DNA of 64,000 nt from Aequorivita lipolytica (lineage in GTDB: Bacteria > Bacteroidota > Bacteroidia > Flavobacteriales > Flavobacteriaceae). A program made the translations under genes and the position numbers. The stretch lies in contig NZ_VORU01000004.1 in NCBI RefSeq assembly GCF_007997135.1, positions 248,001 through 312,000 of the forward strand. Direction: 5' to 3'. Shown piece by piece: positions 29,408 to 38,832 of this stretch. Numbering within the stretch: the stretch's first letter is position 1; every line of letters starts with the position of its first letter. The notes under the pieces are model-generated. The model saw only the letters and a program-made list of their open reading frames with translations, was not told the DNA's origin and made no database searches.

Positions 29408-30247
29408 ATGGCTTCACCCAATTGGAAAACAGCTAAAGAATATACTGATATCACTTATAAAAAAGCAAACGGCGTAGCGCGAATTGCTTTCAACAGACCA
29501 GATGTGCGCAACGCTTTTCGCCCAAAAACCACTGCTGAATTGCTTGATGCTTTACACGATGCACAGGAAGATATCTCCATTGGGGTAGTTTTGCTTTCTG
29601 CGGAAGGACCTTCCTCCAAAGACGGCGTTTATAGTTTTTGTAGCGGCGGCGACCAAAAGGCGCGTGGCCACCAAGGCTATGTGGGTGACGATGGATATCA
29701 CAGATTAAATATTCTTGATGTGCAACGGTTAATTCGATTTATGCCGAAAGCGGTTATCTGCGTGGTTCCTGGGTGGGCCGTAGGTGGCGGGCACAGTTTG
29801 CACGTGGTTTGCGACTTAACATTGGCAAGCAAAGAACACGCTATATTTAAACAGACCGATGCCGATGTTACCAGTTTTGACGGTGGCTACGGAAGTGCTT
29901 ATTTGGCAAAAATGGTAGGGCAGAAGCGCGCGCGTGAAATTTTTTTCCTCGGAAGAAACTACTCCGCACAACAAGCTTTTGAAATGGGAATGGTAAATGC
30001 CGTAATCCCACACTCCGAATTGGAAGACACCGCATACGAATGGGCGCAGGAGATTCTTGCGAAGAGTCCAACCTCTATTAAAATGCTAAAATTTGCTATG
30101 AATTTAACGGATGATGGAATGGTGGGTCAACAAGTTTTTGCCGGAGAAGCCACCCGACTTGCCTATATGACGGACGAAGCAAAAGAGGGGCGCGATGCTT
30201 TTCTTGAAAAGCGCAAACCGAACTTTGATAAAAAGTGGTTGCCTTAA
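29408..30247 (+). CDS. menB: 1,4-dihydroxy-2-naphthoyl-CoA synthase
   Basis: MenB closes the second ring of the menaquinone head group from succinylbenzoyl-CoA. From 29408 the product is 279 residues of the crotonase fold. Diagnostic features are A-F-N-R-P-D-V-R-N-A-F-R-P-K-T, the long loop with V-Y-S-F-C-S-G-G-D-Q-K-A-R-G, V-P-G-W-A-V-G-G-G-H-S-L and F-D-G-G-Y-G-S-A-Y-L. The Asp of T-D-A-D-V-T-S-F-D-G-G supports MenB rather than a generic enoyl-CoA hydratase. It is 3 kb from menF/menD; menC, menE and menA are not in this window. Confidence 0.96.
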   Translation: MASPNWKTAKEYTDITYKKANGVARIAFNRPDVRNAFRPKTTAELLDALHDAQEDISIGVVLLSAEGPSSKDGVYSFCSGGDQKARGHQGYVGDDGYHRLNILDVQRLIRFMPKAVICVVPGWAVGGGHSLHVVCDLTLASKEHAIFKQTDADVTSFDGGYGSAYLAKMVGQKRAREIFFLGRNYSAQQAFEMGMVNAVIPHSELEDTAYEWAQEILAKSPTSIKMLKFAMNLTDDGMVGQQVFAGEATRLAYMTDEAKEGRDAFLEKRKPNFDKKWLP

Positions 30248-33729: not shown

Positions 33730-35397
33730 CTACTTCCCATAAGCATCCGCATGTACGTTTTTTACCGCCCTCCCACTAGGGTCGTTCATATTCTTAAAGC
33801 TTTCGTCCCATTCCAATGCAATGGGACTGCTGCAGGCAACGGATGGTACGGATGGTACGCTGAGTGCTGCAGTATCACTGGGGAAATGTTCTGTAAAAAT
33901 GCTTCGGTAATAAAACTCTTCTTTGCTGCTGGGGGTTTGTAGTGGGAATTTATATTTGGCATTGGCCAGCTGCTCGTCGGTTACTTTTTCATTTACCATT
34001 TCCTTTAAAGTGTCTATCCAACTGTAGCCCACGCCGTCGCTGAACTGTTCCTTTTGGCGCCAGGCAACACTTGCGGGCAGCATATCTTCAAAAGCTTTGC
34101 GAAGCACCCATTTTTCCATGCGTTCGCCGTTTATCATTTTATCCTGCGGGTTGATTCGCATGGCTACGTCCATAAACTCTTTGTCAAGGAAAGGTACACG
34201 ACCTTCAATGCCCCAACTGGCGAGCGATTTATTGGCGCGAAGACAATCGTACATATGCAGCTTGTCCAGTTTGCGTACGTTTTCTTTATGGAACTCCTCT
34301 GCGTTTGGCGCTTTGTGAAAATATAAATAGCCCCCAAATATTTCGTCAGCACCTTCACCGCTGAGTACCATTTTTATACCCATCGCTTTAATGGCACGCG
34401 CCATCAAATACATAGGGGTGCTGGCGCGGATAGTAGTAATATCGTAAGTTTCCAAATGATAAATTACATCCTGAATCGCATCGATTCCTTCCTGAATGGT
34501 GAATTTTATTTCGTGGTGGACAGTTTGTAAATGGTCTGCCACTTTTTGCGCGGCGGCAAGGTCTGGACTTCCTTCTAAGCCAATAGCAAAGCTGTGTAGT
34601 TGTGGCCACCAAGCGCCTTCGGTGTCTTCACTTTCTATGCGTTTTTCGGCATACTTTTTTGCAATGGCGGAAGTGATGCTACTGTCTAACCCACCCGAAA
34701 GTAAAACTCCATAAGGCACATCGCTCATAAGTTGGCGGTGTACTGCGGCTTCCAAAGCTTTGCGGAGTTCGGCGATTTCGGTGGCATTGTTTTTTACGTT
34801 TTCATAATCCATCCAATCGCGGGAATACCAACGTTTTAGTTCGCCTTCGCGGCTGTCCAGATAATGGCCGGGTGGGAAGAGTTCGATTTTGGTACAAACA
34901 CCTTCCAAAGCTTTCAGTTCAGAAGCTACATAAAAAGTTCCATTCTGGTCCCAACCCATATACAGCGGAATAATGCCCATATGGTCTCGGGCTATAAAAT
35001 AATTGTCGTTTTCAATATCGTAAAGCGCAAAACCGAAGATGCCGTTCATTTCATCCAAAAATGAAACGCCTTTTTCTTTATATAAAGGAAGAATTACCTC
35101 GCAGTCGCTTTTGGTTTGAAAGTCATAGTCTTTGAATTGCTTACGAAGCTCGGTATGGTTGTAGATTTCGCCATTGGCAGCCAAAACCAAATTGCGATCA
35201 CTACTGAAAAGTGGTTGCTTTCCGGAAGTGGGATCTACAATGGCGAGACGCTCGTGGGCCATAATCGCATTATCGTTGCTGAAAATTCCGCTCCAGTCCG
35301 GTCCACGATGACGGATACATTTTGCCATTGATAATACTTGAAGTCTGAGAGCGTCTGCGGGCTCTTTAAGTTTGAATGCACATACAATTCCACACAT
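33730..35397 (-). CDS. asnB: asparagine synthase (glutamine-hydrolysing)
   Basis: AsnB makes asparagine from aspartate, ATP and glutamine. The 555-residue protein begins M-C-G-I-V-C, with the N-terminal nucleophile Cys2 of the glutaminase domain (about 1-205), and has the synthetase P-loop S-G-G-L-D-S-S (about 236-242) plus L-S-G-E-G-A-D-E-I-F-G-G. Length is normal. Upstream, at 35431-35534, lies an Asn-rich leader peptide and an intrinsic terminator, so expression is probably controlled by attenuation in response to asparaginyl-tRNA charging. A heptamer array touches its stop codon. Confidence 0.97.
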   Translation of the reverse strand: MCGIVCAFKLKEPADALRLQVLSMAKCIRHRGPDWSGIFSNDNAIMAHERLAIVDPTSGKQPLFSSDRNLVLAANGEIYNHTELRKQFKDYDFQTKSDCEVILPLYKEKGVSFLDEMNGIFGFALYDIENDNYFIARDHMGIIPLYMGWDQNGTFYVASELKALEGVCTKIELFPPGHYLDSREGELKRWYSRDWMDYENVKNNATEIAELRKALEAAVHRQLMSDVPYGVLLSGGLDSSITSAIAKKYAEKRIESEDTEGAWWPQLHSFAIGLEGSPDLAAAQKVADHLQTVHHEIKFTIQEGIDAIQDVIYHLETYDITTIRASTPMYLMARAIKAMGIKMVLSGEGADEIFGGYLYFHKAPNAEEFHKENVRKLDKLHMYDCLRANKSLASWGIEGRVPFLDKEFMDVAMRINPQDKMINGERMEKWVLRKAFEDMLPASVAWRQKEQFSDGVGYSWIDTLKEMVNEKVTDEQLANAKYKFPLQTPSSKEEFYYRSIFTEHFPSDTAALSVPSVPSVACSSPIALEWDESFKNMNDPSGRAVKNVHADAYGK

Positions 35398-35430
35398 AAT
35401 TTCTATAATTTAAATGGTTAGTTCTATTTC

Positions 35431-35464
35431 AAAAAAAAAGCCTGTCAAGAAAAACTTGACAGGC
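35431..35464 (-). terminator. asnB leader terminator (attenuator)
   Basis: On the minus strand a perfect 10-bp stem (35464-35455 with 35449-35440), a five-T loop and nine T residues (35439-35431) form a textbook intrinsic terminator 33 bp before the asnB ATG. CAAGTTT inside it (35458-35452) can instead pair with AAACTTG at 35483-35477, just after the leader stop, giving a 7-bp antiterminator. Confidence 0.88.
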
Positions 35465-35486
35465 CATATATCGCGACAAGTTTCTG

Positions 35487-35534
35487 TTACGGCAGCTGGT
35501 TATTATTATTGTTGGTATTTCGGCTGAAAAACAT
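35487..35534 (-). CDS. Asn-rich leader peptide of asnB
   Basis: The 15-codon frame encodes MFFSRNTNNNNNQLP and a TAA stop, with six Asn codons, five of them consecutive. It lies 23 bp before the terminator stem. If ribosomes stall at the Asn run when charged tRNA-Asn is scarce, the AAACTTG segment four bases past the stop stays free to pair with the terminator and asnB is transcribed. If translation finishes, the ribosome covers that segment and the terminator forms. Geometry and codon content fit classical attenuation; the frame is too short for ordinary gene finding. Confidence 0.85.
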   Translation of the reverse strand: MFFSRNTNNNNNQLP

Positions 35535-35732
35535 AAACTTGTTATTTTATAATTGAAATGCTAATTTAATGTAATTAATTTACGACTTCCTAATATTTTA
35601 TAAAGAATATTCAATTAATTGTTGAAGGAAATAAAAATTCGTTGAAATACACTTTTTATACCGAATTGGTCTGAAAACCCTTTTTAGGATTTGATTATTA
35701 CGAAAATTTGCAGCTTTAGATTTTTCTGAAGC

Positions 35733-36318: not shown

Positions 36319-38733
36319 TTATCTTAACTTCGGAAACTCCGCTGGATGCGCCTCGTGCATAATCTCATACACTCTTTCATAAACATCTTCCACAGAAGGC
36401 TTGGTAAAATAATCGCCATCCGTTCCATAAGGTGGACGGTGATCTTTAGCGGAAAGTGTTTGTGGTTTACTGTCTAAATATTTGTAGCCGCCCTGTACTT
36501 CCACAATCTGATTCAATATATAAGCTGAAGCGCCGCCCGGAACGTCTTCGTCAATAACTAGAAGTCGGTTGGTTTTTGCAACACTTTTAACCATATCTTG
36601 GTTTATATCTAAAGGAAGCAACGATTGTACATCAATTATTTCGGCATTTATTCCTGCTTGTTGCAGCTCTTTTGCGGCTTCTTCTACAATTCTAATCGTG
36701 CTTCCGTAGGAAACTAAAGTGATATCGGTTCCTTCTTTAATAGTTTCAACTACGCCGATTGGTGTTTTAAGTTCGCCTAGATTGTTTGGCATTTTTTCCT
36801 TTAAACGGTAGCCGTTCAGACATTCTATTACCAATGCAGGTTCGTCGGTTTCAAGCAATGTGTTGTAAAATCCTGCGGCCTTGGTCATATTTCGTGGTAC
36901 TAGAATATACATTCCGCGTAGCAAATGAATCAAACCGCCCATTTGCGAGCCGCTGTGCCAGATACCTTCCAGTCTGTGGCCACGGGTACGAACAATTAGT
37001 GGAGCTTTTTGGGTTCCGTTGGTTCTGTAACGTACCGTCACCAAATCGTCACTCATTATTTGAAGGCAATATAATATGTAATCTAAATACTGAATCTCTG
37101 CAATAGGGCGCAAGCCGCGCATCGCCATCCCAATTCCTTGACCTAAAATGGTTGCTTCACGAATTCCGGCATCGGCAACCCTTAGCTTGCCGTACTTTTC
37201 CTGCATACCTTCCAAGCCTTGGTTTACATCACCAATCTCCCCACTGTCTTCTCCAAAAATTAATACATCTGGATGCTTGTCGAAAATAGCATCAAAATTG
37301 TCACGAATAATTACACGGCCATCCACTTCTTCTGCATCATGAGCATAGGAGGGAAGTACCTCTTTAATTGTCTTGCCATTTTCCACAGCTTCGCTGTAAA
37401 GATGTGCGCTGTATTTGGGTTGGATTGTTTCAAAATAATTTGCGATCCAATCCTGAAGTTGTTTCTTTTCAGAAGATTCTTCGCCTACCACAAAGCGCAA
37501 TGCTTTACGGGCGGAGGCAAGAATATTTCTGCGCGATGGCTCTTTTTCCGAAGCCAATTCGTTCTTTAATTTTTCAATGAAATTTTTGTTTGCACTATTC
37601 TCTGCTAAATTTTCGAGCAATAAAACCGCTTCTTCCTGCTCTTTTTTCTGAGGTGCTACAAAAGCATCCCAAGCCGCTTTTTTACCGTCGCGAACTTTTT
37701 TCTTTATATCCTTTTCTATTTCAGCCAAGGTTTCTTCTGTGGCAATGTCGCTGGTAATCATCCACTCGCGCATTTTCACGTTACAGTCATTTTTTGCTTC
37801 CCAATCTAAACGCTCTTTACTTTTATAGCGTTCGTGTGAGCCGCTTGTGCTGTGACCTTGAGGCTGTGTTAATTCATTAACGTGAATGAGAACGGGAACA
37901 TGCTCTTCGCGTGCAATTTTTGAAGCACGGTTATAAACTTCAATAAGCTCTGGATAATCCCAACCTTTTACGCGGATTATTTCAAATCCATTTTCATCTT
38001 CAGTTCTCTGAAATCCTTTTAATATTTCTGAAATATTTTCTTTGGTTGTTTGGTATTTTGCGTGAACGGAAATTCCGTATTCATCATCCCAAACGCTCAT
38101 TACCATTGGTACCTGCAATACTCCAGCTGCGTTTATGGTTTCCCAAAACAGCCCTTCGCTGGTACTTGCATTTCCAATGGTTCCCCAAGCAACTTCATTT
38201 CCATTAATGGAAAAATTTGTTTTATTTTCAATTCCTTTTACATTTCTAAAAATCTTGGAAGCCTGTGCCAAGCCCAACAAACGTGGCATCTGTCCAGCCG
38301 TTGGTGAAATATCGGCACTACTGTTTTTTTGTTGTGTAAGGTTTTTCCAGCTACCGTCCTCATTAAGACTGTGGGTTGCAAAGTGACCGCCCATCTGTCT
38401 TCCGGCGCTCATTGGGTCTGCTTTAATATCTGTATGCGCATAAAGCCCTGCAAAAAACTGTTCAATAGTGAGTTTGCCGATTGCCATCATAAATGTTTGG
38501 TCGCGGTAGTAACCACTACGCCAGTCGCCATTTTGAAATGCTTTTGCCCAGGCTAGTTGTGGCACCTCTTTTCCGTCACCAAAAATTCCAAACTTTGCTT
38601 TCCCTGTAAGTACCTCACGACGGCCCAAAAGACTACACTCACGGCTGGTGACAGCAATCTTATAATCGTTTAAAACTGTTTCTTTGAAATCGTCAAAGGA
38701 AATATCGCTATTGGTCTTTGGGTCTGTGTGCAT
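36319..38733 (-). CDS. fused E1 alpha/beta subunit of a 2-oxo acid dehydrogenase
   Basis: From the ATG at 38733 the protein has 804 residues, with the alpha half (about 1-430; Y-Y-R-D-Q-T-F-M-M-A-I-G, G-N-A-S-T-S-E-G) and the transketolase-like beta half (about 455-800; F-G-E-D-S-G, G-I-G-M-A-M-R-G, the Q-Y-L-D-Y-I stretch) in one chain. It decarboxylates a 2-oxo acid with thiamine diphosphate and passes the acyl group to an E2 lipoyl protein. Branched-chain 2-oxo acids are the most likely substrates. E2 and E3 are not adjacent. A TATTTTTG promoter box 20 bp upstream supports this start rather than 38784. Confidence 0.93.
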   Translation of the reverse strand: MHTDPKTNSDISFDDFKETVLNDYKIAVTSRECSLLGRREVLTGKAKFGIFGDGKEVPQLAWAKAFQNGDWRSGYYRDQTFMMAIGKLTIEQFFAGLYAHTDIKADPMSAGRQMGGHFATHSLNEDGSWKNLTQQKNSSADISPTAGQMPRLLGLAQASKIFRNVKGIENKTNFSINGNEVAWGTIGNASTSEGLFWETINAAGVLQVPMVMSVWDDEYGISVHAKYQTTKENISEILKGFQRTEDENGFEIIRVKGWDYPELIEVYNRASKIAREEHVPVLIHVNELTQPQGHSTSGSHERYKSKERLDWEAKNDCNVKMREWMITSDIATEETLAEIEKDIKKKVRDGKKAAWDAFVAPQKKEQEEAVLLLENLAENSANKNFIEKLKNELASEKEPSRRNILASARKALRFVVGEESSEKKQLQDWIANYFETIQPKYSAHLYSEAVENGKTIKEVLPSYAHDAEEVDGRVIIRDNFDAIFDKHPDVLIFGEDSGEIGDVNQGLEGMQEKYGKLRVADAGIREATILGQGIGMAMRGLRPIAEIQYLDYILYCLQIMSDDLVTVRYRTNGTQKAPLIVRTRGHRLEGIWHSGSQMGGLIHLLRGMYILVPRNMTKAAGFYNTLLETDEPALVIECLNGYRLKEKMPNNLGELKTPIGVVETIKEGTDITLVSYGSTIRIVEEAAKELQQAGINAEIIDVQSLLPLDINQDMVKSVAKTNRLLVIDEDVPGGASAYILNQIVEVQGGYKYLDSKPQTLSAKDHRPPYGTDGDYFTKPSVEDVYERVYEIMHEAHPAEFPKLR

Positions 38734-38753
38734 GAATTTGAATTTTAAGATTA

Positions 38754-38761
38754 CAAAAATA
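38754..38761 (-). promoter_or_regulatory. TAnnTTTG -7 element of the E1 gene (TATTTTTG)
   Basis: Read on the minus strand, this perfect -7 box ends 20 bp before the ATG at 38733, which makes 38784 (upstream of the box) an unlikely start. Confidence 0.55.
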
Positions 38762-38832
38762 GCGAAATTGAAGGTGGTTCGCAATGATAAATTGAGTATA
38801 GGGAATTTTAAAAGATAAGGCTTTTTATAATG

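Follow-up and report, generated by a model that had tools for sequence, protein, structure and literature searches.

A candidate ribosome-mediated attenuator with asparagine codons upstream of asnB in Aequorivita lipolytica and other Flavobacteriaceae

The window, the whole stretch of 64,000 nucleotides of A. lipolytica DNA that was analysed, contains on its minus strand a gene for asparagine synthase B, asnB (33730-35397). The product matches NF006949 with 934 bits (cut-off 499) and contains the Pfam domains Asn_synthase and GATase_7; among the genomes searched, the closest named relative of the gene is that of Aequorivita aurantiaca with 95% identity. Upstream of the asnB start codon (ATG at 35397), a short open reading frame is present on the same strand, which was below the length floor of the program-made ORF list. 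It starts with ATG at 35534, ends with the stop codon at 35489-35487 and specifies the peptide MFFSRNTNNNNNQLP. Six of its codons are Asn codons, codon 6 (35519-35517) and codons 8 to 12, which form an uninterrupted run of five (AAC AAT AAT AAT AAC, 35513-35499). Three bases separate the stop codon from the sequence AAACTTG (35483-35477), designated segment 2, which is followed by the spacer TCGCGATATATG (35476-35465) and by a predicted intrinsic terminator. The terminator consists of a stem-loop of 10 bp (35464-35440) with the arms GCCTGTCAAG (35464-35455) and CTTGACAGGC (35449-35440) and of a tail of nine T (35439-35431), leaving a gap of 33 bp to asnB. Its 5' arm and loop are overlapped by CAAGTTT (35458-35452), segment 3, the potential antiterminator partner of segment 2. 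The leader peptide, segments 2 and 3, the terminator, and the gap to asnB had been given with the same positions in a preliminary description of the locus, and re-examination confirmed them.

Two further elements could be placed upstream of the reading frame. Segment 1 (ACAAGTTT, 35542-35535), located directly 5' of the leader ATG, is an alternative partner of segment 2, and in the minimum free energy fold without a ribosome the two form what may be a protector helix. A promoter-like -7 box, TAAATTAG, is found at 35568-35561; it corresponds with one mismatch to the Flavobacteria-type sequence TAnnTTTG as given in the main text of PMC9723704. In the alignment, the spacer between segment 2 and the terminator (TCGCGATATA; other leaders read ACCCTATA) is more conserved than its pairing would need, two extra antiterminator pairs being possible there. 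Elsewhere in the window, an ORF of 821 aa (36319-38784) matches the models for both the E1 alpha and beta subunits of a 2-oxoacid (pyruvate-type) dehydrogenase, in all cases below the cut-off.

Shuffled sequences were used to judge the short reading frame and the fold. When the region 35398-35732 was shuffled, a short ATG-started ORF with five consecutive Asn codons was obtained in none of 20,000 mononucleotide and none of 10,000 dinucleotide shuffles, and within the window the leader is the sole ATG-started ORF of up to 30 aa containing NNNN. Five-Asn codon runs as such are not enriched, with six sites in the 3.3 Mb genome versus four for the reversed pattern, and only the one in the asnB leader falls in a short ORF with ATG. 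A region of 116 nt is predicted to fold with -28.3 kcal/mol, which is better than 200 out of 200 dinucleotide shuffles (z -3.6), and the terminator has the most G-C pairs among 13 terminator-like sites between window positions 30000 and 40000.

For the genus, 28 Aequorivita genomes including that of A. lipolytica were searched. An asnB gene with at least 82% identity was found in 23 of them, full length in 21 and cut by contig ends in two (G013, G016). While asnB was unmatched in G012, G017, G024, and G025, the assembly of G017 being only 69% complete, G005 gave only a weak match to a paralogue. The arrangement upstream of asnB, referred to below as the module, is present in exactly the 23 genomes in which asnB was found, and all 23 have the Asn-rich leader. 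A covariance model, R1, was built from the stretch 3' of the leader stop codon at 35 loci chosen for having a leader; it includes no Asn codons. R1 detected one match of 79 to 89 bits in each of the 23 genomes, the next best match in any genome reaching 41 bits. The segments flanking the leader are 54, 57, 60, 63, or 72 nt apart in 22 of the 23 genomes, the distance being not measurable in the remaining one, and leader start and stop thus stay in frame despite the changes in length. Among the ten Aequorivita leaders of 15 residues, pairwise codon comparisons revealed 73 synonymous versus 200 non-synonymous differences; therefore, selection does not maintain the peptide sequence outside the Asn run. 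It is the Asn-rich frame that is retained, and not the peptide as such.

All 23 Aequorivita leaders also contain a promoter-like box, TAnnTT(A/C)G, 25 to 30 nt upstream of the leader ATG. Several Aequorivita loci (L084, L086, L087, L096, L097) carry a repeat of the type CCCCTTGCCCCCTTCAAAGGGGGAA between terminator and asnB, which accounts in part for the variable distance between leader and asnB. Since ilvD had no match in 22 of the 28 genomes and asnB none in five, amino acid biosynthesis looks patchy in the genus.

Leaders of Aequorivita and other genera were compared as a set of 64 distinct sequences, selected by a script that demanded at least three Asn codons, an ATG start, and a stop codon close to CTTG. 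Five duplicates and three further leaders, L006 (MTFNNLNNNNFT), L187 (GTG start), and L196 (MNNNNLNNNNYT), were left out of these statistics, and L001 was dropped from the counts because it stems from the same genome as L087. The leaders specify 11 to 19 residues. Asn accounts for 45% of the residues after Met, a share that is no independent test since the script demanded at least three Asn, and the leaders draw on both codons for this residue (292 AAT, 117 AAC). The longest Asn run comprises four to ten residues in 56 leaders and one to three in the other eight. Altogether 57 distinct peptides are specified, and their C-terminal ends are short and of the types LP, MP, NP, KT, and others. The gap between stop codon and segment 2 is 3 nt in 62 of the 64 leaders, and 59 have AAACTTG itself. 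The distance from the leader ATG to asnB varies widely among the true leaders, from 115 to 262 nt.

The position of segment 2 relative to the leader codons would suit control by a translating ribosome, as had been proposed from the single locus. Assuming a leading edge of the ribosome 13 nt downstream of the A site, a stall at any Asn codon leaves segment 2 free in 57 of the 64 leaders, and a ribosome at the stop codon covers segment 2 in 63. In the remaining seven leaders, a ribosome on the last Asn codon would, owing to the short distance, cover about 2 nt of segment 2.

In 31 distinct rows of the alignment, 99.7% of the cells of the terminator stem are paired, and changes on both sides occur in five of the ten pairs; this covariation score was reached by none of 500 shuffles, which ignore the relatedness of the sequences. 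The antiterminator helix 2:3 has seven of seven pairs in 62 leaders and six of seven in two, and 97.8% of its cells are paired versus 20 to 60% when the strands are slid against each other. Compensatory change is found in one of nine antiterminator pairs, no more than was obtained in 360 of 500 shuffles, and it is almost absent because segment 2 hardly varies. The strand common to both stems reads CAAG, CAGG, or CGGG only, and more variation is seen in the opposite arm of the terminator. The changes in the common strand are therefore confined to A and G and preserve its pairing with CUUG, the invariant part of segment 2. Thus, the expectation of the preliminary description that relatives would retain the Asn run and the alternative pairings was borne out in the 64 leaders, which keep the Asn-rich reading frame, its distance from the antiterminator, and both stems, and the compensatory changes it looked for in the two stems were detected in the terminator and not, beyond the level of shuffles, in the antiterminator. 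For the predicted antiterminator, the support lies in conservation and in the restricted A/G change.

The predicted helix between segment 1 and segment 2 is an additional element absent from the preliminary description. The 1:2 duplex has a mean energy of -6.4 kcal/mol versus -2.3 to -3.5 kcal/mol in three controls and beats the upstream control in 61 of the 64 leaders; L009 and L201 lack the helix. Eight leaders have a changed segment 2. When their pairing was ranked, with segment 1 bounds slightly shifted relative to the duplex statistics, the leader's own segment 1 was the best or second best partner in L173, L176, and L206, and L208 and L188 ranked 7th and 17th of 64, whereas no 1:2 compensation was seen in L172, L195, and L199.

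When the A. lipolytica RNA ending with segment 3 was folded, helix 1:2 was predicted without a ribosome (-14.7 kcal/mol) and helix 2:3 with everything masked as far as 6 nt ahead of the stop codon (-8.1 kcal/mol). In the masked state, 2:3 forms with a probability above 0.5 in 62 of the 64 leaders. In the unmasked state, the same threshold is passed by 1:2 in 43 leaders and by 2:3 in 13, and the protector helix is therefore not universal. With the complete masked RNA of A. lipolytica, the terminator remains the most favourable equilibrium structure; the switch must therefore operate kinetically, like the classical ones.

The family was searched with R1 in a sample of 397 Flavobacteriaceae genomes, 280 of which have asnB at E <= 1e-250. 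The module was detected in at least 40 genomes of 25 genera. All 40 matches precede asnB and follow an ORF with at least three Asn, including one leader starting with GTG (L187) and one that was read by eye (L196). Eight of the 40 genomes double as training loci, three of Aequorivita and five with identical leaders, and 32 are therefore new. Forty genomes is a lower bound, as family matches were examined down to 38.9 bits. The score bands overlap, with true matches down to 44.0 bits and chance ones up to 51.1 bits. Fifteen weak or off-target matches of 38.9 to 51.1 bits (L205, L209-L217, L220, L222, L223, L303, L304) were rejected as ordinary terminators lacking an Asn-rich ORF. Outside the family, no true match was obtained in partial samples of the order (395 genomes) and the phylum (345 genomes), which were searched with stricter filters; two of the rejected matches, L303 and L304, came from the phylum sample. 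By exact matching of AAACTTGTCGCGATAT, the module was found in front of no other gene of A. lipolytica, the one match in the genome being the asnB leader itself. With up to three mismatches, 44 genomic matches were obtained, fewer than with the reversed control (66), and the next best R1 match in this genome has 35.1 bits.

From these analyses it appears likely, with a probability of about 90%, that the module is a ribosome-mediated transcription attenuator through which asnB responds to the supply of charged tRNA-Asn. The preliminary description had arrived at classical attenuation from the order of peptide, antiterminator, terminator, and asnB and from the Asn run matching the product of the enzyme, and this reading is strengthened by the comparisons. 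From the parts, their conservation, their geometry, and the pairings open to them, we infer that the promoter is used, that the leader is translated, and that ribosomes stall in it depending on asparagine. RNA polymerase would begin transcription some 20 nt upstream of the leader ORF. On a leader that is not being translated, segment 1 would pair with segment 2, segment 3 would be free, and the terminator would form. With plentiful asparagine, a ribosome would reach the stop codon, and the terminator would form because segment 2 is covered. When asparagine is short, the ribosome would stall on the Asn codons and leave segment 2 free for pairing with segment 3, which would block the terminator and allow transcription of asnB. 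Segments 1 and 2 might still pair around a ribosome on the Asn run, as the ribosome has already passed segment 1.

Combinations of a terminator with alternative pairings occur in other attenuators as well, and the element could be constitutive or sense its signal through RNA, as a T-box, a riboswitch, or a target of an RNA-binding protein, the short ORF being incidental. This is considered very unlikely. No Rfam family reached its gathering score anywhere in the window, and the 13 permissive matches (E up to 10) in 35380-35620 were all below theirs. Against it also stand the Asn-rich ORF found with every one of the 40 family matches before asnB and the stop codon located 3 nt from segment 2 in 62 of the 64 leaders. 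Retention of the ORF over many genera might instead reflect a small peptide with a function of its own, or the attenuated leader RNA might act in trans as a small RNA; a role in trans is reported for the leader peptide peTrpL in the part of PMC7298713 consulted. The variability of the peptide outside Asn and the short C-terminal end, with nearly as many peptides as leaders and an excess of non-synonymous differences, speaks against a functional peptide, and this explanation is given even less weight.

Equally improbable is a control of asnB at the level of translation, by coupling or by a hidden asnB start. Flavobacteria initiate without Shine-Dalgarno sequences (main text of PMC9723704), and leader structures could therefore matter for initiation. 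Against this stand the intrinsic terminator with nine U between ORF and gene, kept with compensatory changes, and the range of more than 100 nt in the distance from the leader ATG to asnB. An attenuator acting on transcription is thus the preferred reading.

Classical ribosome-mediated attenuators of enteric bacteria are those of trpL, hisL, leuL, ilvL, thrL, and pheL. The asnB leader resembles them in its ORF with codons for the product, the stop codon near the antiterminator, the potential helices 1:2, 2:3, and 3:4, and a terminator before the gene. It differs in the amino acid and gene, asparagine and asnB, in the phylum, and in the location of segment 1, which lies at the leader start codon and not inside the control codons. 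When sequence similarity to enteric leaders was searched with Rfam, Thr_leader reached 15.4 bits versus a gathering score of 55. A general account of ribosome-mediated attenuators is given in the part of PMC1183508 consulted. Runs of codons matching the amino acid are described for leader peptides of Actinobacteria (trp, ilv, leu, cys; main text of PMC1262725) and of Firmicutes (hisS/hisZ; main text of PMC2965389). Within the same family, the main text of PMC9723704 reports strong clues for leader-peptide attenuation before amino acid operons of F. psychrophilum, and the mechanism proposed there is the same as that considered here for asnB.

An Asn-run leader before asnB is not described in the parts consulted of PMC7366714, PMC2965389, PMC4833913, and PMC1262725. 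The main texts lack the terms 'asnb' and 'asparagin' (PMC9723704), 'asparagin', 'asnb', 'asn', and 'bacteroidetes' (PMC1262725), and 'asparagin', 'asnb', and 'bacteroidetes' (PMC2965389). No such leader was found in titles and abstract openings of the open literature searched. Within this literature, the kind of mechanism is classical, and amino acid, gene, and lineage appear to be new. Asparagine, for which no earlier case was found in the literature searched, would join the amino acids whose supply is read through leader peptides. The arrangement is a stable trait of 25 or more genera, and for other operons of this family the mechanism had already been suggested.

Leaders of similar design, which served as positive controls, are present before other biosynthetic genes of the genus. 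A His-rich ORF precedes hisG in all 17 Aequorivita genomes with hisG (L252-L268; A. lipolytica, L255: MNKTILHHHHIFFRALAR). The His run is broken in a few of them, as HIHH or HNHH, and a simple scan detected a terminator after the ORF in 15 of 17. An ORF with a Trp run (WWW) followed by a terminator was found before a trpE-like gene at 22 of the 23 loci scanned (A. lipolytica, L275: MNTFNTNTWWWKNLRKTS; others among L276-L297), L289 being without such a leader. These are the 23 best loci with 407 to 431 bits to TIGR00564, five lower-scoring ones (L298-L302) being outside the scan, and the curated cut-off of this model, 517.7, is not attained by any match in the 28 genomes. For ilvD, present in six of the 28 genomes, no codon-run leader with terminator was seen. 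The hisG and trpE-like leaders share with the asnB leader the genomes and the succession of a short ORF with cognate codons and a terminator, but they have other leader and terminator sequences, and none of the R1 matches listed for A. lipolytica is located there. That a single genus has leaders for histidine, tryptophan, and asparagine suggests that these bacteria make general use of attenuation.

The distribution of the module was also compared with the relationship of the asnB genes. In a FastTree phylogeny of 131 distinct asnB N-termini, 66 with and 65 without the module, its presence requires a single change on the tree (support 99). When four rows without the module starting with GTG (L011, L016, L020, L051), absent from this tree, were added in an IQ-TREE analysis, a single change was again sufficient (support 89). 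Gain and loss of the module are not separable since the trees are unrooted. Not included in the trees were L028 and L033, for which the DNA available upstream was too short, L077, a row with a different start and no module, L103, a row with the module that is cut by a contig end, and L237 and L241, whose start was not found, and for L006, L172, L176, L199, L229, and L239 the module label was set by hand, the pattern having indicated no module. The Flavobacterium rows L015, L030, L042, L048, L049, L071, L076, L078, and L080 have no module. It is present in L010, a metagenome bin labelled Flavobacterium sp., which groups with other genera.

Upstream of asnB, the 65 rows without the module show another element, GTTtTAAaTTGTAAC, followed 31 nt further on by GTTTTatAATtgaAA and then by an ATATTTG box (consensus of 54 rows). 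At a best-site score of at least 12 out of 15, it was detected in 52 of these 65 rows versus 18 in reversed controls and in three of the 66 rows of the module clade versus seven in reversed controls, with a consensus that had been read by eye from the same sequences on which it was scored. A tentative reading, to which we give slightly less than even odds, is that a regulatory exchange on a single branch split asnB into genes with an Asn-codon attenuator and genes with tandem palindrome-like sites (GTTwwAAwTTGTAAC and a second site about 31 bp on), the same signal being sensed by the ribosome in the former and by a DNA-binding protein in the latter. It is a guess that the tandem sites serve as an operator for a dimeric DNA-binding protein, and that this protein is of the Lrp/AsnC type, of which their spacing is reminiscent. 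With the module on one side of a single branch and the tandem promoter element on the other, the asnB tree provides a clear-cut natural comparison, and therefore the replacement of one sensing system by another at a gene becomes testable. Individual examples of tandem palindrome-like sites about 31 bp apart, located just upstream of the asnB promoter box, can be seen in L080, L068, L038, and L014.
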